From Bacteroidota bacterium (lineage in GTDB: Bacteria; Bacteroidota; Ignavibacteria; Kapaibacteriales; UBA961): a DNA stretch of 64,000 nucleotides. A program made the position numbers and the translations under genes. The notes beneath the pieces are model-generated. The model saw nothing but the letters and a program-made list of their open reading frames with translations, did no database searches and had not been told where the DNA came from. The stretch lies in assembly GCA_018266765.1 (NCBI GenBank), contig JAFDZU010000035.1, positions 9,910-73,909 on the forward strand, written 5' to 3'. Within the stretch, counting starts at the first letter, position 1. Each line of letters opens with the position of its first letter. Below are positions 19,822-29,602 of this stretch, piece after piece.

Positions 19822-20385
19822 ATGGCTTTTAAACAACTTATTGTACTTTCAGCTCCGAGCGGTGGTGGTAAAACAACAGTAGCGCGACATCTTTTAGCAA
19901 CATTTTCGAAAATGCGGTTTTCAGTATCGGCTACTACTCGCCCTCAACGTTTGGGCGAAGAAGAAGGACGCGACTATTTCTTTTTATCGAAAGAAGAATT
20001 CACTACAAAAATTAAGAACGGTGACTTACTCGAATACGAAGAAATATTTGGTAATCTTTATGGAACGTTGCGTTCCGAAGTTAAAAAATCATTAGATAAT
20101 GGTGATTGTATTATATTTGACGTGGATGTAAAAGGTGCTCTATCACTCAAAAAAGCGTTCCCGAAGGAAACTCTTTTAATGTTTATTGCTCCTCCAAGTA
20201 TGGAAGCTCTCGAACAGCGTCTGCGACTTCGGCAAACCGAATCCGAAGAACAAATTACTCTTCGGCTCGAACGTGCGGCAATGGAAATGAAGAGTGCGAA
20301 GGCATTCGACTCGGTAATAATTAATGATAATCTTACAACTACACTCAGCGAAGCTGAAGATACCGTTAGGAAAAACATACAATAA
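19822..20385 (+). CDS. gmk: Guanylate kinase
   Basis: This 187-aa cytoplasmic enzyme phosphorylates GMP to GDP using ATP. It shows the P-loop SAPSGGGKTTVA (about residues 8-19), the GMP-binding segment SATTRPQRLGEEEGRDYFF, the phrase LLEYEEIFGNLYGT, FDVDVKGALSLK and the lid-region sequence RLRLRQTESEEQI. Its length is normal for the family. It is co-directional with yicC and followed at 49 bp by a strong terminator. Confidence 0.96.
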   Translation: MAFKQLIVLSAPSGGGKTTVARHLLATFSKMRFSVSATTRPQRLGEEEGRDYFFLSKEEFTTKIKNGDLLEYEEIFGNLYGTLRSEVKKSLDNGDCIIFDVDVKGALSLKKAFPKETLLMFIAPPSMEALEQRLRLRQTESEEQITLRLERAAMEMKSAKAFDSVIINDNLTTTLSEAEDTVRKNIQ

Positions 20386-20433
20386 ACAAAAAATATCTCT
20401 CTTCATTCTAACGTGAGCCACAGAAACAATACA

Positions 20434-20464
20434 AGCTCTACCACAATTGGTAGGGCTTTTTTTT
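20434..20464 (+). terminator. Strong intrinsic terminator of yicC-gmk
   Basis: AGCTCTACCA (20434-20443) pairs with TGGTAGGGCT (20448-20457) around a CAAT tetraloop, with one G-T pair, and runs directly into eight T residues (20457-20464). Confidence 0.92.
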
Positions 20465-20493
20465 ATTGCAAAAGGGTAATAAAAATGAATTCA

Positions 20494-20519
20494 GAAACTT
20501 AATAAACATAAATAGTTTC
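20494..20519 (+). promoter_or_regulatory. Candidate TetR operator A
   Basis: GAAACT-N14-AGTTTC, a 26-bp dyad. It lies 20 bp upstream of the -33 box of the tetR promoter and matches two further dyads at 20571 and 21300. Confidence 0.55.
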
Positions 20520-20538
20520 CATTGTGAACAAAAAATAA

Positions 20539-20570
20539 TTTGACACGATGAACTAATTATCGTAATTTTG
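20539..20570 (+). promoter_or_regulatory. Promoter of the tetR gene
   Basis: TTTG (20539-20542), a 20-nt spacer and TAATTTTG (20563-20570) match the Bacteroidota consensus exactly. Transcription should start near 20576, inside candidate operator B. Confidence 0.7.
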
Positions 20571-20596
20571 AAAACTTAAAAAACGATTTCAGTTTC
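20571..20596 (+). promoter_or_regulatory. Candidate TetR operator B (autoregulatory)
   Basis: AAAACT-N14-AGTTTC, directly after the -7 box, covers the expected transcription start and 5' leader of tetR, a position suited to repression. It differs in one base from the other two dyads. Confidence 0.55.
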
Positions 20597-20621
20597 CAAT
20601 TCAAATTTCAAAGGAAAAACA

Positions 20622-21284
20622 ATGGAAATATCAGAAGAAAAATCCAAAGAACTACAGGTGTGGAATCGCATTGTAGAAAGTGCCAAACAATCATTTTTTG
20701 AGTGTGGATTCAGTCGGGTTACCATGGATGAAATTGCAGTAAATTTAGGTATGAGCAAAAAAACACTTTACAAACATTTTTCTTCTAAAGATGAATTATT
20801 AAAAACTGTTATGACGAATCATTGCAAAGGACTGGACGGACGTGTACAGCCAATTATGGAAAATGACAGAACTGATTTTATCGAAAAAATGATGGTTATG
20901 GGACCAATAATTGCCGAAAACATTGCTAAAATTCCTGTTCATTTTCTAAAAGATTTAGAGAGAAACGCGCCTGAAACTTGGAGTGAATACCAAGAATGGA
21001 GACGCAATAATATTATTGATAAATTTGGAAGATTTCTAAGAGAAGGAATAGAAAAAGGAATTTTCCGTAACGATCTCAACACCGAAGGCATCGTGACAAT
21101 GTATCTAACGATTATTGAAGGTATGTTTCGCTCTGAAGTTCTAACAAAATTACCACTTACACCTTCACAAGTTTATATTATGATTGCAAAAATACTTACA
21201 GAAGGAATAATCAATGAATCTGCTCGAAAAGAATATTTAGAGAAAACTCGCCCTGCAATGACAGAGTTTTCACTGTCAATTTAA
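20622..21284 (+). CDS. TetR/AcrR-family repressor of the RND efflux operon
   Basis: This 220-aa protein has an N-terminal TetR helix-turn-helix, with FFECGFSRVTMDEIAVNLGM followed by SKKTLYKHFSSKDELL (about residues 24-67). The C-terminal ligand domain is variable, as usual. The gene is followed on the same strand by tolC, an adaptor and an RND pump, and candidate operators flank it on both sides. It most likely represses itself and the pump. The inducer is unknown. Confidence 0.9.
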   Translation: MEISEEKSKELQVWNRIVESAKQSFFECGFSRVTMDEIAVNLGMSKKTLYKHFSSKDELLKTVMTNHCKGLDGRVQPIMENDRTDFIEKMMVMGPIIAENIAKIPVHFLKDLERNAPETWSEYQEWRRNNIIDKFGRFLREGIEKGIFRNDLNTEGIVTMYLTIIEGMFRSEVLTKLPLTPSQVYIMIAKILTEGIINESARKEYLEKTRPAMTEFSLSI

Positions 21285-21299
21285 ATAAAATGAAACTTA

Positions 21300-21325
21300 G
21301 AAACTAAAATTTCGTTTTGAGTTTC
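21300..21325 (+). promoter_or_regulatory. Candidate TetR operator C, upstream of the efflux genes
   Basis: GAAACT-N14-AGTTTC, identical in arms and spacing to operator A. An extra GAAACT lies 8 bp upstream at 21292. The sequence after the right arm (AGTTTCC..ATT..AAATTTCA) also resembles that after operator B. A TAATTTTA at 21357-21364 is a possible -7 element of the efflux transcript. Confidence 0.55.
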
Positions 21326-21406
21326 CGATTGTAAATTTCAATGATTGTTTTATTCTTAATTTTAGCATAATAAATAGTTTTTCAAGAATAATTTTCAGGA
21401 AAATAT

Positions 21407-22744
21407 ATGAGAAAACTGCCGAAAATGTTTGCAACGCTAATAGTTATTGGGATTATGTATGGTGTACAGCCAACAGCAGTAGCACAGCAAAAAATGTCGC
21501 TTACTATTGATAAAGCTGTCGAACTCGGTTTAGCAAACAGTAAGCTTGTCCATGCCTCGAAAGCAAAAATTGGTGCGGCTGAGGCAAAGACCTCAGAAAC
21601 AAGTGCAGGCCAATTACCCTCCCTTACGTTTCAAGGTGGGTATTCACGACTTTCAAATGTTGAAGCACCTTCATTTACTCTTCCCGGTTCAACAACAAAG
21701 ATTCCAATTGCAGATCCTGTATTGGATAACATAGTATTAAAATTATCTCTTCAACAGCCAATTTTTACAGGTTTTCGGCTTGAAAGTGCTACTAAAATTG
21801 CTCAACTCACAGCTGAAGCCACCAGAATAGATTTACTTAAAGATAAATCTGATGTTGCTTTTGCAATAAAATCAGCGTATTGGAATATGTATAAAGCATT
21901 CCAACTTAAAAAAGTAAATGACGATAATGTTGTACAAGTTCAAGCACATCTAAAAGATGTTGAGAGCATGGAACGTAACGGAGTAGCAACCAATAATGAT
22001 GTCCTAAAAGTAAAGGTACAGCTTTCTGATGCTAAACTTCGTCAGATTGATGCCAAAAATATGGTTCTCCTATCTCAAGTAACGATGAATAACTATCTGG
22101 GTCAACCACTTACCACGGAAATAGAACTTGTCACAAATGCACAATCAGCAACAAAAGATATTGGTTCTTGGGAAAGCTCAATGAATGATGCAAAAAAACA
22201 ACGTCCTGAAGTTCAAGCGGCGGAACTTCGTATGAAAGCAGGTGAAGAAGGCATAACAATGGCAAAATCAAGTTGGTATCCTCAAATTGCCTTAGCGGCT
22301 AATTACAATTTAAATAATCCTAATCAACGCATTTTTCCACTAAAACCAGAATTTACAGGCACTTGGGATGTGGGTATCAATGTTTCGATGAATATTTGGA
22401 ATTGGGGAGTCACAAACCACCAAACTACCCAAGCCGAACTTCAAGTCATTCAGGCACAAGACGCAATCGGACAGATTAAAGAAGGAATTAATGTCGAAGT
22501 AACACAAAGTTATCTTAATCTAACCCAAATGAAAGAAAAAGTAAAAGTAGCTCAAGAAGGTGTCGCACAAGCTGAAGAAAATTTACGCTTAACAAATGAA
22601 AAGTTTAAAAATGGTGTAGCTATCAGTACTGATGTTTTGGATGCAGATTTTGCATTATTATCAAGCAAAACAAATTATACTAATGCCGTAGTAGATGTTG
22701 AAATTGCGGAGGCGCGGCTTCAAAAAGCACTCGGAGAAGAATAA
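21407..22744 (+). CDS. TolC-family outer membrane efflux protein
   Basis: This 445-aa outer membrane factor has a signal peptide (cleavage probably after TAVAQ, about residue 27) and two homologous halves with conserved helices, such as LKVKVQLSDAKLRQIDAKN and ISTDVLDADFALLSSKTNY. It should be the exit duct of the RND pump encoded downstream. The ribosome binding site CAGGAAAA precedes the ATG at 21407. The adaptor gene follows after 58 bp. Confidence 0.92.
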   Translation: MRKLPKMFATLIVIGIMYGVQPTAVAQQKMSLTIDKAVELGLANSKLVHASKAKIGAAEAKTSETSAGQLPSLTFQGGYSRLSNVEAPSFTLPGSTTKIPIADPVLDNIVLKLSLQQPIFTGFRLESATKIAQLTAEATRIDLLKDKSDVAFAIKSAYWNMYKAFQLKKVNDDNVVQVQAHLKDVESMERNGVATNNDVLKVKVQLSDAKLRQIDAKNMVLLSQVTMNNYLGQPLTTEIELVTNAQSATKDIGSWESSMNDAKKQRPEVQAAELRMKAGEEGITMAKSSWYPQIALAANYNLNNPNQRIFPLKPEFTGTWDVGINVSMNIWNWGVTNHQTTQAELQVIQAQDAIGQIKEGINVEVTQSYLNLTQMKEKVKVAQEGVAQAEENLRLTNEKFKNGVAISTDVLDADFALLSSKTNYTNAVVDVEIAEARLQKALGEE

Positions 22745-22802: not shown

Positions 22803-23861
22803 ATGAAAAAGATAGTAACAATAGGAATTTTAGTGATTGCAAGCGTAGCAATTGGATTCACATTAATAAATAATAAAGCCAAAAGTGAAGCCAAAACAGC
22901 ATCTGTTTCCTCTGATATGCAGAAGGAAATTCCTGTTTCGGTAACAACTGTATTACAACAATCTCTTACTGATGATTTATCAATGGTGGGAACAATTTTG
23001 CCAAATAATGATGTAAATGTAATAAGTGAAACGCAAGGAAGAATTACTCAAATGCCTGCAAAAGTTGGAGATGTAAAATCTGCCGGTTCGGTAATTGCCA
23101 TAGTTGATGATGAGTTAAAGCAAGCAGCACTCATCAGTGCACAAGCAAATTACGACAAAGCTCTCAGTGATTGGAACCGTTATGAACCGCTTTATAAAGA
23201 AAAAGCAATGACTTCAGCACAACTTGATGGGGCAAAGCTAGCCGTCAAGTTAGCAGAATCACAACTTATTATGGCTAAAAGACAACTGCGAGATACTAAA
23301 ATAACAACTCCGATTTCCGGTGTAATAGCAGCAAAATATGTAGATGCAGGTGCATCGGTTGACAACAAATCCGTTATAATTAATATAATAGATATTTCGA
23401 CTCTTAAAGTAAAAATTAATGTCGCCGAACGGGATGCTTTTGCTCTTAAAGCCGGTGATAGAGTAGAAATCACATCGTCAGTATATCCTACACAGAAATT
23501 TGAGGGGAAAGTAGCAAGTATCGGCTCGAAAGGTGACGAGGCACATACCTATCCTGTGGAAATATGGTTGCCAAACAGTAAAACCTATCCTCTTAAAGCC
23601 GGAATGTTTGCTCGTGTTACTTTCACAACGGTTGCTCGTGAGAACTCTTTAATTATTCCACGATCGGCACTTGTCGGTAGTGTTAAAAATGCAGAAGTTT
23701 TTGTGGTAGAAAATAATATTGCAAAACTCAAGAAAGTACTTATTGGTTCGGAAGCTGAATCGAACCTAGAAATATTACAAGGGCTTAATGCCGGTGAAAT
23801 AATCGTGACCAACGGACAAAACAACCTTAAAAATGGCTCTGAAGTTAAGGTAATTAACTAA
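22803..23861 (+). CDS. RND efflux periplasmic adaptor (membrane fusion protein)
   Basis: This 352-aa protein has an N-terminal hydrophobic anchor or signal (residues 4-24, no lipobox), the lipoyl halves GRITQMPAKVGDVKSAGSV and KITTPISGVIAAKYVDAGAS flanking a short helical hairpin (about residues 100-155), a beta-barrel and a C-terminal membrane-proximal domain (LEILQGLNAGEIIVTNGQNN). It connects the RND pump to the TolC-like protein. GAGGAAA is the ribosome binding site, and the pump gene starts 52 bp downstream. Confidence 0.93.
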   Translation: MKKIVTIGILVIASVAIGFTLINNKAKSEAKTASVSSDMQKEIPVSVTTVLQQSLTDDLSMVGTILPNNDVNVISETQGRITQMPAKVGDVKSAGSVIAIVDDELKQAALISAQANYDKALSDWNRYEPLYKEKAMTSAQLDGAKLAVKLAESQLIMAKRQLRDTKITTPISGVIAAKYVDAGASVDNKSVIINIIDISTLKVKINVAERDAFALKAGDRVEITSSVYPTQKFEGKVASIGSKGDEAHTYPVEIWLPNSKTYPLKAGMFARVTFTTVARENSLIIPRSALVGSVKNAEVFVVENNIAKLKKVLIGSEAESNLEILQGLNAGEIIVTNGQNNLKNGSEVKVIN

Positions 23862-23913: not shown

Positions 23914-26900
23914 ATGACAGTAACAGAACTTGCAATTAAACGACCGACACTTGTCGTTGTACTTTTTGCAATCTTAAGCGTGTTGGGACTATTCGGCTAT
24001 TCACAACTTAAATACGAATTGCTCCCCAAAATTAGTCCTCCAATTATAACGATTTCAACTATTTATCCCGGTGCATCACCAAGCGAAGTAGAGACTTCTG
24101 TCTCGAAGCCAATCGAAGATGCTGTTTCGGGTATTGATAAAGTTTCTGCTGTTCGTGCTACTTCTGCCGAAGGACGCTCGACCGTAACCGTCGAGATGAA
24201 ACAAGGTGCAAATGTAGATTTAGCTTTGCAAGATGCTCAACGTAGAGTTAATGGAGCGCAGATGCTGCTGCCAAAAGATGCACGATCACCTATTATTTCT
24301 AAATTTGCTCTCGATGAAATTCCCGTAGTTCGGATGGGTGCTACAAGTAATATGCCTAAACGTGAGTTTTATCAATTTGTGAAAGACCACGTTCAGCCCG
24401 AACTTTCAAAATTAGAAGGAGTCGGTTTAATAACTATTGTCGGTGGTGAAGAGCGCGAAATAAAAGTAAATTTGGATGCTCAAAAACTTCGCGCCTATGG
24501 TCTTGCTATTAATCAAGTTGCACAAATTATTAAAGCATCAAATATAGATTTCCCAACCGGTAATGTAAAAGAATCTGATGGTCAATTTGTAGTACGAGTT
24601 GCCGGAAAATTCAATTCTATTGATGAGATTCGTTATTTAGTAATCGGTCGATCGAGACAAGGTGGCGATATTAGGTTAATGGATGTTGCTGAAATTGAAG
24701 ATGGACATAAAGATTATACAAACATTACTCGTGTTAGTGGTAATACTTCAATTGGAGTATTAGTATCGAAGCAATCCGATGCTAATTCTGTAGATGTTAG
24801 TAAACTTGTTCGCAAGCAAATAGCTGTTATGGAATCTAATTATGCAAAAAAGAACTTAAAGTTTACGATTGCTCAAGATGGTTCTCTTTTTACAATTGAT
24901 GCCGCCGACGCTGTAAAACATGATTTACTTATTGCTATTTTGCTTGTAGCATTTGTGATGATGATTTTTCTTCATAGCTTTCGTAATTCTATTATCGTGA
25001 TGATCTCGATTCCAATTTCGCTTATTTCTACACTCTTTTTTATGTATCTTTTTGGGCTTACACTCAATTTGATGACATTGCTTGGGATGTCGCTCGTTAT
25101 TGGAATTTTGGTGGATGATTCAATTGTTGTGTTGGAAAATATTTACAGGCATTTAGAAAAAGGCGAGAATAAACGAAAAGCCGCACTCGAAGGTAGAAAT
25201 GAAATAGGTTTTGCCGCACTTTCGATTACACTTGTGGATGTTGTGGTCTTTGTTCCACTTTCACTTGTTTCGGGTTTAGTTGGTAATATTTTACGTGAAT
25301 TTGCACTTGTAGTCGTAGTTTCTACGCTATTTAGTTTGCTCGTTTCATTTACTGTTATTCCGGTTCTTGCATCTCGTTTTGCTAAAGTTGAACATTTAAC
25401 CAAAAACTCTCTATTGGGTCGTTTCGGACTTTGGTTTGAGCGTGTATTTGATTCAATTAATAGAAGTTATCATGGAATACTTGCTTGGAGTTTGAGAAGT
25501 TGGTGGACTCGTTTCTCAATCATAGGAATTTCACTTCTATTATTTGTTGGATCTATTCTTTTAGTTGCTTTTAAATTTATAGGTTCTGAGTTTATAGCAC
25601 AATCCGACAGAGGGGAATTTGCAGTAACAATCGAACTTCCCCCGGGAGCAACAATTGAAAATACGAACTTTTCTACTTTACAAGTAGAGCAGATTCTCCG
25701 TGAAATTCCTGAAGTTGCAAGAACATTCGTTACCGTTGGTGCATCAAATGAAGGTTTACTTGGGCAATTCTCGAATAATTCATCTGAAATCAATGTAGCT
25801 CTTACTCCAAAAGATAAACGGACACGCTCGACCGATGATATCGGACAATTTATTAAATCAAAAGTACAAGATTTACCCGGATTGAAAGTACGTGTGAATC
25901 CGATTGGAATTTTCGGTACTGCGAATCAAACTCCGATTCAAATTGTGGTGAGTGGTACTAATTTTAAGGACGTAAACAAAGGTGCAAACTTAATCGCTGA
26001 AATGCTTAAAAGTATAGAAGGTACAGCAGATGTTCGATTATCAGCCGAAGATGGTAAACCCGAAACTCGTGTAGATATTGACCGTCAGAAGCTTGCCGCA
26101 TTCGGACTCACAATAGCAGATGTAGGTTCGTCATTAAAAGTAGCTTTGAGCGGCGATGATGACGCAAAATTCCGTGATGGCAATGATGAATATACTCTTC
26201 GTATTCTGCTTGACCAACATGACCGTTCACAAACAGAATATCTAAAGACACTTGCGTTTGCAAATAGTCGTGGGCAACAAATAGAACTTCAGCAGTTTGC
26301 AACTATTTATACTTCCACAGGTCCAACAAAACTTCAACGAGAAAACCGTAATACCGCTATTACTGTGTTTTCGCAAGCATTAGGCAAACCGCAAGGAACG
26401 ATTATCGAAGAATTTCAAAAGAAACTTGCCGAAAATCCAATTCAACCCGGGCTTGACGTAACTTTCCTTGGCGACCAAAAAAATCAGCAAGAATCTTTTG
26501 CCAGTTTGGGTGCGGCACTCGGTGCGGCAATTTTATTTGTGTATTTGATTATGGTTGCACTGTACGATTCATATATTTATCCTTTTGTAGTATTATTTTC
26601 TATTCCGGTGGCATTGATTGGAGCACTCTTGGCAATGGCATTAAATATGAAAGCACTTGGGTTATTTCCAATTCTTGGAATAATAATGCTTGTGGGATTG
26701 GTTGCCAAAAATGCTATCCTCTTGGTGGACAGAACTAATCAAATGCGCAGTGAGGGAATGGAGCTTATTCCGGCACTTCTGGAAGCGGGAGAAACCCGTT
26801 TTCGTCCGATTGTGATGACGACTCTTTCGATGGTAATTGGTATGCTTCCGATTGCAACTTCATCGAGTTCGGGAGCAGAATGGAAAACAGGACTTGCTTG

Positions 26901-27093
26901 GGCGTTAATTGGCGGTTTGTCGAGTTCACTGCTTCTTACACTTGTCTTAGTTCCGGTAATTTATATAATTATGGAAAAATCTACCAATTATGTAAAACGA
27001 ATTTTCCGTAAATTCGTTCCCAAAAACAATGATGATGGTATTGCAATTTCGGCAGAACCATTTGTAGTTCACTCAAGTGAGCCACAGTCTTAA
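23914..27093 (+). CDS. RND multidrug efflux pump (AcrB/HAE1 family)
   Basis: This 1059-aa inner-membrane proton/drug antiporter has twelve transmembrane helices and two large periplasmic loops. The N-terminus (FAILSVLGLFGYSQLKYELL) and PGASPSEVETSVSKPIEDAV are typical of the hydrophobe/amphiphile exporters. The proton-relay aspartates are in GILVDDSIVVLENIYRHLEKG on TM4 and the partner Lys is in GLVAKNAILLVDR on TM10, so heavy-metal CusA-type function is unlikely. It is the last gene of the TetR-controlled operon and is followed by a terminator. Confidence 0.95.
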   Translation: MTVTELAIKRPTLVVVLFAILSVLGLFGYSQLKYELLPKISPPIITISTIYPGASPSEVETSVSKPIEDAVSGIDKVSAVRATSAEGRSTVTVEMKQGANVDLALQDAQRRVNGAQMLLPKDARSPIISKFALDEIPVVRMGATSNMPKREFYQFVKDHVQPELSKLEGVGLITIVGGEEREIKVNLDAQKLRAYGLAINQVAQIIKASNIDFPTGNVKESDGQFVVRVAGKFNSIDEIRYLVIGRSRQGGDIRLMDVAEIEDGHKDYTNITRVSGNTSIGVLVSKQSDANSVDVSKLVRKQIAVMESNYAKKNLKFTIAQDGSLFTIDAADAVKHDLLIAILLVAFVMMIFLHSFRNSIIVMISIPISLISTLFFMYLFGLTLNLMTLLGMSLVIGILVDDSIVVLENIYRHLEKGENKRKAALEGRNEIGFAALSITLVDVVVFVPLSLVSGLVGNILREFALVVVVSTLFSLLVSFTVIPVLASRFAKVEHLTKNSLLGRFGLWFERVFDSINRSYHGILAWSLRSWWTRFSIIGISLLLFVGSILLVAFKFIGSEFIAQSDRGEFAVTIELPPGATIENTNFSTLQVEQILREIPEVARTFVTVGASNEGLLGQFSNNSSEINVALTPKDKRTRSTDDIGQFIKSKVQDLPGLKVRVNPIGIFGTANQTPIQIVVSGTNFKDVNKGANLIAEMLKSIEGTADVRLSAEDGKPETRVDIDRQKLAAFGLTIADVGSSLKVALSGDDDAKFRDGNDEYTLRILLDQHDRSQTEYLKTLAFANSRGQQIELQQFATIYTSTGPTKLQRENRNTAITVFSQALGKPQGTIIEEFQKKLAENPIQPGLDVTFLGDQKNQQESFASLGAALGAAILFVYLIMVALYDSYIYPFVVLFSIPVALIGALLAMALNMKALGLFPILGIIMLVGLVAKNAILLVDRTNQMRSEGMELIPALLEAGETRFRPIVMTTLSMVIGMLPIATSSSSGAEWKTGLAWALIGGLSSSLLLTLVLVPVIYIIMEKSTNYVKRIFRKFVPKNNDDGIAISAEPFVVHSSEPQS

Positions 27094-27154: not shown

Positions 27155-27424
27155 ATTATAAACATTGGGTAATAGCTTGTAGAATTTTGGGATTTGAAGT
27201 AACCTCGCTTTAGTTTTTATCAATAAGCAGTAACGAAATTTACTGTTGTAATCTTTTTCCCTAAAATTTAGCGTTGAAATTATTGTGACTTTAACAATTA
27301 TGTAGTTGTTATTTAATTAGTTAACATTGTATAATCTGAAATAATAATATTACGTTGTTTAGATTTTGTTAATTCAGAGCTATAAATATTTTTTTGCAAA
27401 CTATGACTTTACGGAAGAAGTTTG
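27155..27424. other. AT-rich leader region before the TPR/SARP regulator
   Basis: I see no gene in this stretch. A TTTG at 27365-27368 is followed about 20 nt later by a T-run ending TTTTTTTG (27389-27396). This only half-matches the consensus, so a promoter here is tentative. GGAAGAAG just before the start codon is the likely ribosome binding site. Confidence 0.35.
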
Positions 27425-29602
27425 ATGACCAATAACTATTCGGCACTTTCTATTCATACCTACATAGATGAACTTAATCAACAAGCGGAAGCAGAATTTC
27501 GGGACAAACAATACGAACATGCTCTTCAAATAACGCAACAGGCGGAGAGACTTTCTGTCGAGCATAAACATCTTGAGGGTAAAGGACTTGCCTTGCGGAT
27601 TAGAGGGAAAATATTATATACCTTGGTTCGCTATGATGAGGCACATGAATATTTTCATCAAGCAGTTGGTATTTTCCAGGAAATTGGTGATCCGCTTCAA
27701 ATAGCCCGTTCACTACAAGGTCTTGCTACTACGTATTATGCTACGGGACGATTACTTCATTCCTTAGAAGAAAACCTAAATGCCTTTTCAGTTATGGAAC
27801 TTGGCGGACTCGAAAAGCATTCTCTTGATATAGTCGGTAATATTGTATTATGTTACCATTCACTTGGAGAATTTTATTATGCAATAGAATATGCCCACAA
27901 ACAATTGGCACTTGCGCGTAAATACAACTCAACTAATTACTCTGCGAGAGCGCTATCGAGCTTGGGAGAATTGTATTTTCGAATAGCAGATTATACCACT
28001 TCGCTCAATTACTCCAATGAAGGATTAGCTCTAGTAGTTGATAAAAAAAATATTATAGCTGAATCCGGTTTTTTGAGCAATATTGGTTCTGTTTATTATC
28101 TCCTTGGAAATTATACAAATGCTCTCGACTCAATGATGAAAAGTATAGCAGTTGCTGAACTGTATCCTGATAAAAGTATTCTTTCTCCACTCCTTAATAC
28201 AGTATGCTGTATCTACGGTAAAATGCAGAATGACTCTCTTGCTCTTGATTATGCCATGAGAGCTTTGGCTATTGATATCGAGTTCGCCGACCCTAAAGGC
28301 GAAGCATATACATTGCATAATATCGCATCAGTTTTTGAACAAAACGGTGATATTACAACAGCAATAGAGTATGCGAAAAAAAGCTACGGACTCTTTGTTA
28401 ATTCATCAATAAAAGAAGGTGAAGCAGAGACATTGATCTTACTGGCAACATGCAATACAAAGCTTGGCGACTATATCACTGCTATTAACAATGCAAAAGA
28501 TGCTCTCGAAATTGCTGAAACTATTCAAGCTCATACGATGCTTCAAAGTTCTTTACAACAGTTACTATCGCTTTCAAATCTTATCGGTGATTCTTCTGCG
28601 GCTGAACATTATAGCCGCCGCCTAACCCTAACTACAAAAATTATTGCCAAGGAGGAACAGCGTAAAAATGCCGAAAAAATATTACGGGAAGCACAAATAA
28701 AAAGAACGCAAGAACAAGCACAATTACTTATATCTTCAACCAAAACAAAACTCACAGGTGATTTTTTAGATAAAACGCAAACTCTCAAACAACAAGGTTT
28801 TGTTTTAGCTACTATTGCAAACACGAAAACAGTTAAGAAAAGCAAGGTATCTCATTCTATTATTGTAAGAACATTTGGCCTTTTCTCGGTAACGATTGAT
28901 GGAAGAGAATTGACAAGCGATGATTGGCAACGCAAAAAAGCAAGAGACATTTTCAAAATACTTCTTATTAATCATCGCAAATCTGTTACTGTAGATGAGT
29001 TAATTGGACATCTCTGGCCGGATGCTTACAGTAAAAATCTTATCCCGACACTCTGGAATTCTGTTTCGTATATCAGAAAAGCTCTGGAACCGAATATCAA
29101 ACCGCATACTCCATCAGCATTTATTAAAATTACCGGCAAATCTTATATGTTAGATTTAGGGAAGGATGTTTCTATTGATTTCTTGGAATTCAAGGAATTG
29201 CTGAATAGTTCTCGTCATGAAAAGCATGAAGAAACTAAATACATGCTCATTGAAAAAGCTATTTCACTTTACAATGGTGAATTTCTGAAAGATGATGTGC
29301 TTGAAGAGTGGTCAGACTTTCAGCGTGAGTCGCTGAAAGAATTATATTTGGAAGCGACATTAGACATTGGTAACTACTACTTAAATCAAGGCAAACTATC
29401 AAAAGCAATACAATTCGCTCGTAAAACTATAGAGGCAGATAAAGTCTATGAAAATGGATATGAACTTCTATTTACTGCTTTAGCAGATAATCAACAGCTA
29501 TCCGAACTCACCAAAGCATGGAAATTATGCCAATCCGCCTATAAAAAAGAACTCGATACAACCCCACCTGAGTATTTAGCCAAACTCATACTTCTCGCAT
29601 AA
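27425..29602 (+). CDS. TPR-repeat protein with C-terminal SARP-type winged helix and BTAD domain
   Basis: This protein of about 725 aa starts at the ATG at 27425; a TTG directly before it is not needed. Residues 10-400 are roughly nine tetratricopeptide-type repeats, for example GDPLQIARSLQGLATTYYATG. A charged coiled coil follows (about 405-450), then an OmpR-like winged helix (about 478-570, with FGLFSVTIDG and VDELIGHLWPDA) and a bacterial transcriptional activation domain (about 575-725, with YNGEFLKDDVLEEW and LDTTPPEYLAKL). DNA binding at the C-terminus is the reverse of actinobacterial SARPs. It lies 220 bp before three envelope genes that it may control. Confidence 0.85.
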   Translation: MTNNYSALSIHTYIDELNQQAEAEFRDKQYEHALQITQQAERLSVEHKHLEGKGLALRIRGKILYTLVRYDEAHEYFHQAVGIFQEIGDPLQIARSLQGLATTYYATGRLLHSLEENLNAFSVMELGGLEKHSLDIVGNIVLCYHSLGEFYYAIEYAHKQLALARKYNSTNYSARALSSLGELYFRIADYTTSLNYSNEGLALVVDKKNIIAESGFLSNIGSVYYLLGNYTNALDSMMKSIAVAELYPDKSILSPLLNTVCCIYGKMQNDSLALDYAMRALAIDIEFADPKGEAYTLHNIASVFEQNGDITTAIEYAKKSYGLFVNSSIKEGEAETLILLATCNTKLGDYITAINNAKDALEIAETIQAHTMLQSSLQQLLSLSNLIGDSSAAEHYSRRLTLTTKIIAKEEQRKNAEKILREAQIKRTQEQAQLLISSTKTKLTGDFLDKTQTLKQQGFVLATIANTKTVKKSKVSHSIIVRTFGLFSVTIDGRELTSDDWQRKKARDIFKILLINHRKSVTVDELIGHLWPDAYSKNLIPTLWNSVSYIRKALEPNIKPHTPSAFIKITGKSYMLDLGKDVSIDFLEFKELLNSSRHEKHEETKYMLIEKAISLYNGEFLKDDVLEEWSDFQRESLKELYLEATLDIGNYYLNQGKLSKAIQFARKTIEADKVYENGYELLFTALADNQQLSELTKAWKLCQSAYKKELDTTPPEYLAKLILLA

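Follow-up and report, generated by a model that had tools for sequence, protein, structure and literature searches.

Background

AcrR, MtrR and TtgR are TetR-family regulators whose genes lie beside those of an RND pump, whose operators cover their own promoters and which are expected to be released by pump substrates, a combination that we propose for the locus reported here as well. QacR of Staphylococcus aureus (site IR1) and CgmR are likewise TetR-family repressors of exporters, as we propose for the present regulator. A genome-context prediction study of TetR targets reportedly takes adjacent genes as an indication of the target, and the same logic is followed here. Operator length differs within the family. 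The TetR operator measures 15 bp and holds a single dimer, sites of 15-17 bp being bound by one dimer, and the operators of QacR (28 bp), CgmR (32 bp) and CprB (22 bp) are bound by a dimer of dimers (PMC4150764). In the complexes of TetR-family proteins the recognition helices are 31-38 Å apart, and the distance is 37-38 Å in QacR and CprB (PMC4150764).

Here we describe a dyad found in three copies around a tetR gene that is followed by the genes of a TolC-like outer membrane protein, a periplasmic adaptor (MFP) and an RND permease. We put at about 90 % the probability that this dyad is the operator of the local, autoregulating TetR (20622-21284), the predicted repressor of the TolC-MFP-RND pump. 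Positions refer to the window, meaning the whole 64-kb stretch of DNA that was analysed; the terminator, the promoter, the operator copies and the genes from tetR to the permease all lie on its forward strand.

As in the QacR, CgmR and CprB systems, the operator is long, and at 28 bp its outer arms lie beyond the span of a single dimer. It differs from that of QacR in having a polar inner half-site and in that two-dimer binding is a prediction here; the pump is of the RND type, whereas QacA is an MFS exporter. The GGAAAC arm is also unlike the QacR site sequence. Compared with AcrR, MtrR and TtgR, the locus has tolC inside the operon and several predicted operators. Even the best NCBIfam equivalogs score far below their cut-offs and do not fit the protein (MtrR reaches 37 bits where 280 are required), and TtgR gives a weak match only, so the regulator would be AcrR/MtrR-like in function, yet not one of these proteins.

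Results and discussion

The tetR-efflux locus

The locus begins with gmk (19822-20385) and the intrinsic terminator of gmk (20433-20458), which separates the tetR promoter from upstream transcription. Copy a of the dyad, the tetR promoter (20539-20570), copy b, tetR (20622-21284) and copy c follow in that order, and the pump genes come last: a tolC-like outer membrane efflux protein (OEP; 21407-22744, Pfam OEP 7e-62), the periplasmic adaptor (22803-23861, NCBIfam RND_mfp 3.7e-65, exceeding the cut-off) and an AcrB-family RND permease (23914-27093, Pfam ACR_tran 4e-259). The promoter is assigned from its sequence to the Bacteroidota type, TTTG-N20-TAATTTTG, with TTTG at 20539-20542 and TAATTTTG at 20563-20570, and the same box stands directly before the downstream dyad in relatives. 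A scan for sigma70 promoters gave nothing above chance, the outcome expected for this bacterial group.

The encoded repressor, a protein of 220 aa, is a member of the TetR/AcrR family by Pfam, by its structural model and by its fold matches. Its N-terminal helix-turn-helix (HTH) matches PF00440 (TetR_N) at 4.8e-14, with 52.3 bits against a cut-off of 24, and the recognition helix reads KKTLYKH. The AlphaFold model (pLDDT 91.5) comprises eleven helices in an all-helical two-domain fold with a C-terminal ligand domain, on which PF17922 (TetR_C_17) scores 24.2, slightly under its cut-off of 26.1. A fold search with the model returned 297 PDB matches at E at most 0.001, and the matches listed are TetR-type regulators. 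DarR structures are among them, one titled as dimer-of-dimers DNA binding; the sequence closeness of our regulator to DarR, as to Mce3R, is limited to the HTH.

Beyond the 3' end of the pump genes, the window encodes a 726-aa protein (27422-29602) with TPR repeats and Trans_reg_C-like and BTAD domains, resembling a SARP-like regulator; there is no dyad in front of this gene.

Three dyads in the window

Perfect copies of GAAACT-N14-AGTTTC lie at 20494-20519 and 21300-21325, and a third dyad at 20571-20596 carries a single mismatch, its arm reading AAAACT; both the places and the mismatch counts are as an earlier note on this sequence had given them. These are the only sites with at most one mismatch in the 64-kb window, for which a first-order Markov simulation predicts 0.013 perfect sites per 64 kb, or 0.35 if up to one mismatch is allowed. 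Three sites inside 807 bp occurred in none of 300 simulated windows, and from the simulation we estimate the chance of such a three-dyad cluster at about 3e-6 per window.

The earlier note had described palindromes of 26 bp. Their placement and reality stand, but the length does not: the arms have 7 bases in relatives, so the window sites extend to 20493-20520, 20570-20597 and 21299-21326. Copy a (AGAAACTTAATAAACATAAATAGTTTCC, 20493-20520) lies between the gmk terminator and the tetR promoter. Copy b (GAAAACTTAAAAAACGATTTCAGTTTCC, 20570-20597) shares its first base with the end of the -7 box and hence covers the expected tetR transcription start. Both are conserved in relatives. Copy c (AGAAACTAAAATTTCGTTTTGAGTTTCC, 21299-21326) is located between tetR and tolC, 15 bp past the stop codon of the former and about 80 bp ahead of the latter. 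This layout agrees with the claims that two copies frame the tetR promoter, that one of them lies over the expected start and that the third is upstream of the tolC-adaptor-RND genes.

Copies a and b have the spacer stretch TTAAxAAACR in common. It contains an inner half-site AAAC (positions 12-15 of 28), found at 20504-20507 in copy a and at 20581-20584 in copy b, which holds the conserved columns A12, A14 and C15. Of this half-site copy c retains C15 only, and the motif model ranks it as the weakest of the three; its position is kept in the two genomes of the same genus, and two more distant relatives (L010 and L017) likewise have a dyad in the tetR-tolC interval. Selection on the arms, suggested from the window alone because the spacers seemed unlike, needs to be extended to the inner half-site: the spacers are unlike only in part, given the shared stretch and the conserved columns.

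Conservation in relatives

A protein search of 123 genomes of the order identified tetR relatives in 55. The full element as read from relatives, GGAAACY-N14-RGTTTCC (28 bp), precedes tetR in nearly all of the order relatives fetched, usually in duplicate with 72-81 bp between the copies. The dyad, whose absence from orthologous operons the earlier note had named as grounds against an operator, is thus present in orthologs of the same genus, the same family and the same order. When the spacing was varied from 4 to 24 over 30 orthologous loci, sites with at most one mismatch numbered 28 at N14, three at N23 and none elsewhere; many of these loci come from close relatives and the site counts are not independent events.

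The conservation extends well beyond the order. Named genomes, scanned by the HTH peptide alone, yielded 80 loci, and 51 of these homologs, from about ten phyla, have a dyad with at most two mismatches within 400 bp upstream. With 200 permutations of the arms over the same 80 loci, 0.05 loci scored on average and never more than one, and the tetR coding sequences of the named loci, taken as a further control, held no dyad. Positive loci include Ignavibacteria, Bacteroidia, Fibrobacterota, Verrucomicrobiota, KSB1, Edwardsbacteria, Firestonebacteria, Coatesbacteria and one Paenibacillus, the dyad being kept at 26-42 % protein identity. Dyad-negative loci are clustered in the tree, with 20 of 27 on one side branch made up mostly of Cyclobacteriaceae; in this clade tetR lies directly 5' of metG (methionyl-tRNA synthetase) and not of an exporter gene, as read in two loci (L058 and L069). 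Algoriphagus-type genomes whose first TetR match lacks a dyad carry one before a second tetR and an OEP-like gene in five cases.

Anatomy of the 28-bp element

Among 89 sites from the first group of relatives, the arm cores AAAC (3-6) and GTTT (23-26) hardly vary, and conservation within the spacer falls on columns A12, A14 and C15. Of the 89 sites, 82 carry C15 and seven its mirror image, so that across phyla the inner half-site points nearly always the same way with respect to tetR transcription; a mirror inner half-site (GTTT at 14-17) was found in none of 45 sites. Such a fixed orientation is more than plain repression should need, and either an inherited asymmetric site or a functional polarity is a possible reason for it.

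The outer arms are 20-22 bp apart. This is about two helical turns, more than a single normal dimer should span, and each 28-bp site is therefore probably occupied by two dimers, a reading drawn from geometry and from the conserved columns. The single inner half-site (12-15) lies 11 bp from the right arm GTTT, and a spacer with an oriented half-site of this kind suggests that the operator is polar and, like that of QacR, takes two dimers. For this part of our proposal, and for this part only, there is a competing reading that deserves some weight, in which one TetR dimer spans both outer arms and the inner AAAC only aids DNA bending. No other columns come near the outer arms in conservation, and the Bacteroidia sites lack the inner half-site, both as a single wide dimer would have it; against it, the distance between the arms is about twice the 31-38 Å between recognition helices in the TetR family (PMC4150764), and the inner half-site stands at a normal-dimer distance from the right arm. 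We regard one wide dimer as unlikely, without thinking it far-fetched, and continue with two dimers per site.

The half-sites are filled differently elsewhere. At Archangium violaceum L051:2590-2626 a 37-bp palindrome shows four half-sites, GGAAAC-N3-GGAAAC-N7-GTTTCC-N3-GTTTCC, ahead of a P450 gene and then a related tetR. All four positions are occupied there, compared with the outer pair and one polar inner half-site here, and the layout fits the 5/14/23 spacing series of other relatives, in which the inner half-site, together with a fourth half-site or the -7 box, accounts for the spacing-5 and spacing-23 signals.

Specificity for this regulator

In 14 genomes of the bacterium's own family, a dyad with at most two mismatches lies upstream of 13 of 13 orthologous tetR genes and of none of 17 other TetR genes. 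Fisher's exact probability is 1/C(30,13), about 8e-9, if genes are independent, which they are not fully. The recognition helix differs in parallel: SKKTLY in the orthologs, and AKGTLY, AQGLMY, GKGTVY or SAGTIY in the other TetR genes.

A motif model, R1, was built partly from sites that it afterwards recovered, copies a and b included, and it ranks copy a best in the own genome, followed by copy b, by C8:28032 and then by copy c. C8:28032, the one other full-length match that equals copy c, is strong but lies inside a reading frame and was rejected as a further regulon member. The motif scan revealed no convincing intergenic site in the own genome beyond the three copies and hence no sign of a wider regulon. 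Applied to the 123 genomes of the order, R1 gave 41 matches at E at most 0.003, of which 37 by our count belong to tetR genes or pump operons: 34 at tetR of this family and three before tolC-MFP-RND genes on contigs that lack tetR. Three candidates in relatives (L145, L147 and L152) were not accepted as operators; they lie between convergent genes (metallo-hydrolase and scpB-like), inside a longer hairpin that is conserved in three genomes and is probably a terminator.

The strongest single argument that the regulator would find its pump through the dyad comes from two genomes, G031 and G032, neither of which was used to build R1. Their tolC-MFP-RND genes reside on tetR-less contigs and are preceded by two perfect copies (G031:C133) and one perfect copy (G032:C78), and tetR is found on other contigs, each time with its own dyad. 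The tetR-OEP-MFP-RND order is shared by the window and many relatives; in at least seven dyad loci the translations show an HlyD-type adaptor and ABC ATPases in place of the RND parts (L052, L055, L057, L059, L077, L083 and L086), and the genes that follow at the Paenibacillus locus encode a short-chain dehydrogenase and a monooxygenase. On these comparisons the dyad follows the regulator and not the pump type.

An improbable alternative is that the dyads bind a different, wider regulator of this operon and that TetR has another site, for which one might cite the dyads at pump operons without an adjoining tetR. Such a regulator should not, however, accompany one TetR subfamily in many phyla, whether at operons of RND, ABC or another type, be missing from other TetR genes, leave no additional convincing intergenic motif site in the own genome, and mark both tetR and pump when the two are unlinked. 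The suggestion of a probable TetR operator is largely supported by orthologs, by the range of phyla, by the unlinked pump operons and by the specificity for this TetR.

Position relative to the promoter

In the first group of relatives the operator mostly starts directly 3' of the -7/-10 box. In Bacteroidia it lies inside the promoter, between -33 and -7: the spacer of these sites contains TTTG and the flank TAGTTTTG, which are the -33 and -7 boxes. The position relative to the promoter therefore differs by group, which indicates that the site is neither a promoter element as such nor an RNA hairpin.

That the dyads act as RNA hairpins, as attenuators or terminators, is very improbable. Arms of 7 bp with a 14-base loop could pair, and a similar dyad sits in the terminator-like longer hairpins of L145, L147 and L152; but copy a lies 5' of the tetR promoter and the Bacteroidia dyad between -33 and -7, both outside the transcript from the respective promoter, the arms are nearly invariant instead of covarying, a U tract is absent and the conserved inner AAAC has no pairing partner. 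Chance or descent of functionless AT-rich repeats, which the AT-rich window and a possible old duplication behind copies a and b might bring to mind, is contradicted by the simulation and permutation controls, by the exclusive N14 spacing and by conservation at the low protein identities given above, and can practically be dismissed.

A proposed model of regulation

From the conserved sites, their place and their link to TetR, we infer the following course of regulation for the predicted operator. TetR would repress its own promoter from copy b, over the transcription start beside the -7 box, and copy a, 77 bp upstream, would assist. The tolC-MFP-RND genes would be controlled through copy c and by stopping read-through from the tetR promoter. 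Binding of a pump substrate to the C-terminal domain of TetR would bring about release, and with it induction of regulator and pump. Local TetR repressors of pumps are expected to block transcription over the start site, to regulate themselves and to be released by a ligand. The role of copy c is the weakest part of the model, as the copy is degenerate inside and a search by eye found no convincing tolC promoter beside it.

Within each 28-bp operator the half-sites recognised would be GGAAAC (1-6), the degenerate AAAC (12-15) and GTTTCC (23-28), and of the two dimers the downstream one would be the stronger, as it would occupy the better palindrome, AAAC-N7-GTTT (12-26). The distances between the two upstream copies cluster near whole helical turns (72-77, 81-84 and 92-93); this phasing is weak (p about 0.015 against random distances of 55-99), and looping between the copies is accordingly not claimed.

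Novelty and wider occurrence

No earlier account of this operator with its TetR was found in the open-access literature, which gave unrelated matches only and is weak evidence on the point. By that literature the TetR-operator pair is new, and the kind of system is known. The result is a testable predicted operator for a widespread, apparently uncharacterised family of exporter regulators that ranges over Kapabacteria, Ignavibacteria, Bacteroidia, Fibrobacterota, Verrucomicrobiota and candidate phyla. With a concrete operator in hand, targets become predictable even where tetR and pump are apart. An operator that can be read across phyla at 26-40 % protein identity is, in our judgement, uncommon for a local repressor. 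Sites with three, four or two half-sites, and proteins that are single or fused, form a natural series for the question of how TetR dimers share a long operator. As a tentative and rather speculative generalisation, the TetR subfamily with SKKT[LI]Y may read an old and stable code, an array of GGAAAC half-sites 9 bp apart in each arm that is filled differently by phylum and takes two dimers per site, the tandem-fused repressors perhaps matching its polarity.

Two observations from the relatives stand apart from the argument above. At L138:1501-1528 (G049:C39) a good dyad lies 5' of a gene for a secreted cytochrome-like protein with CxxCH motifs, where an extra target and chance are both possible. 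In G031 (C203) and G032 (C73) the regulator consists of two complete TetR units fused in tandem within a single frame of about 455 aa (L198:382-1746 and L199:446-1816), comparable with the tandem TetR protein Mce3R (a chain of 406 aa); these fused regulators keep their operator while the pump operon lies elsewhere, and fused double TetR proteins also occur in L200 and L201, so that the arrangement is seen in two families of the order.
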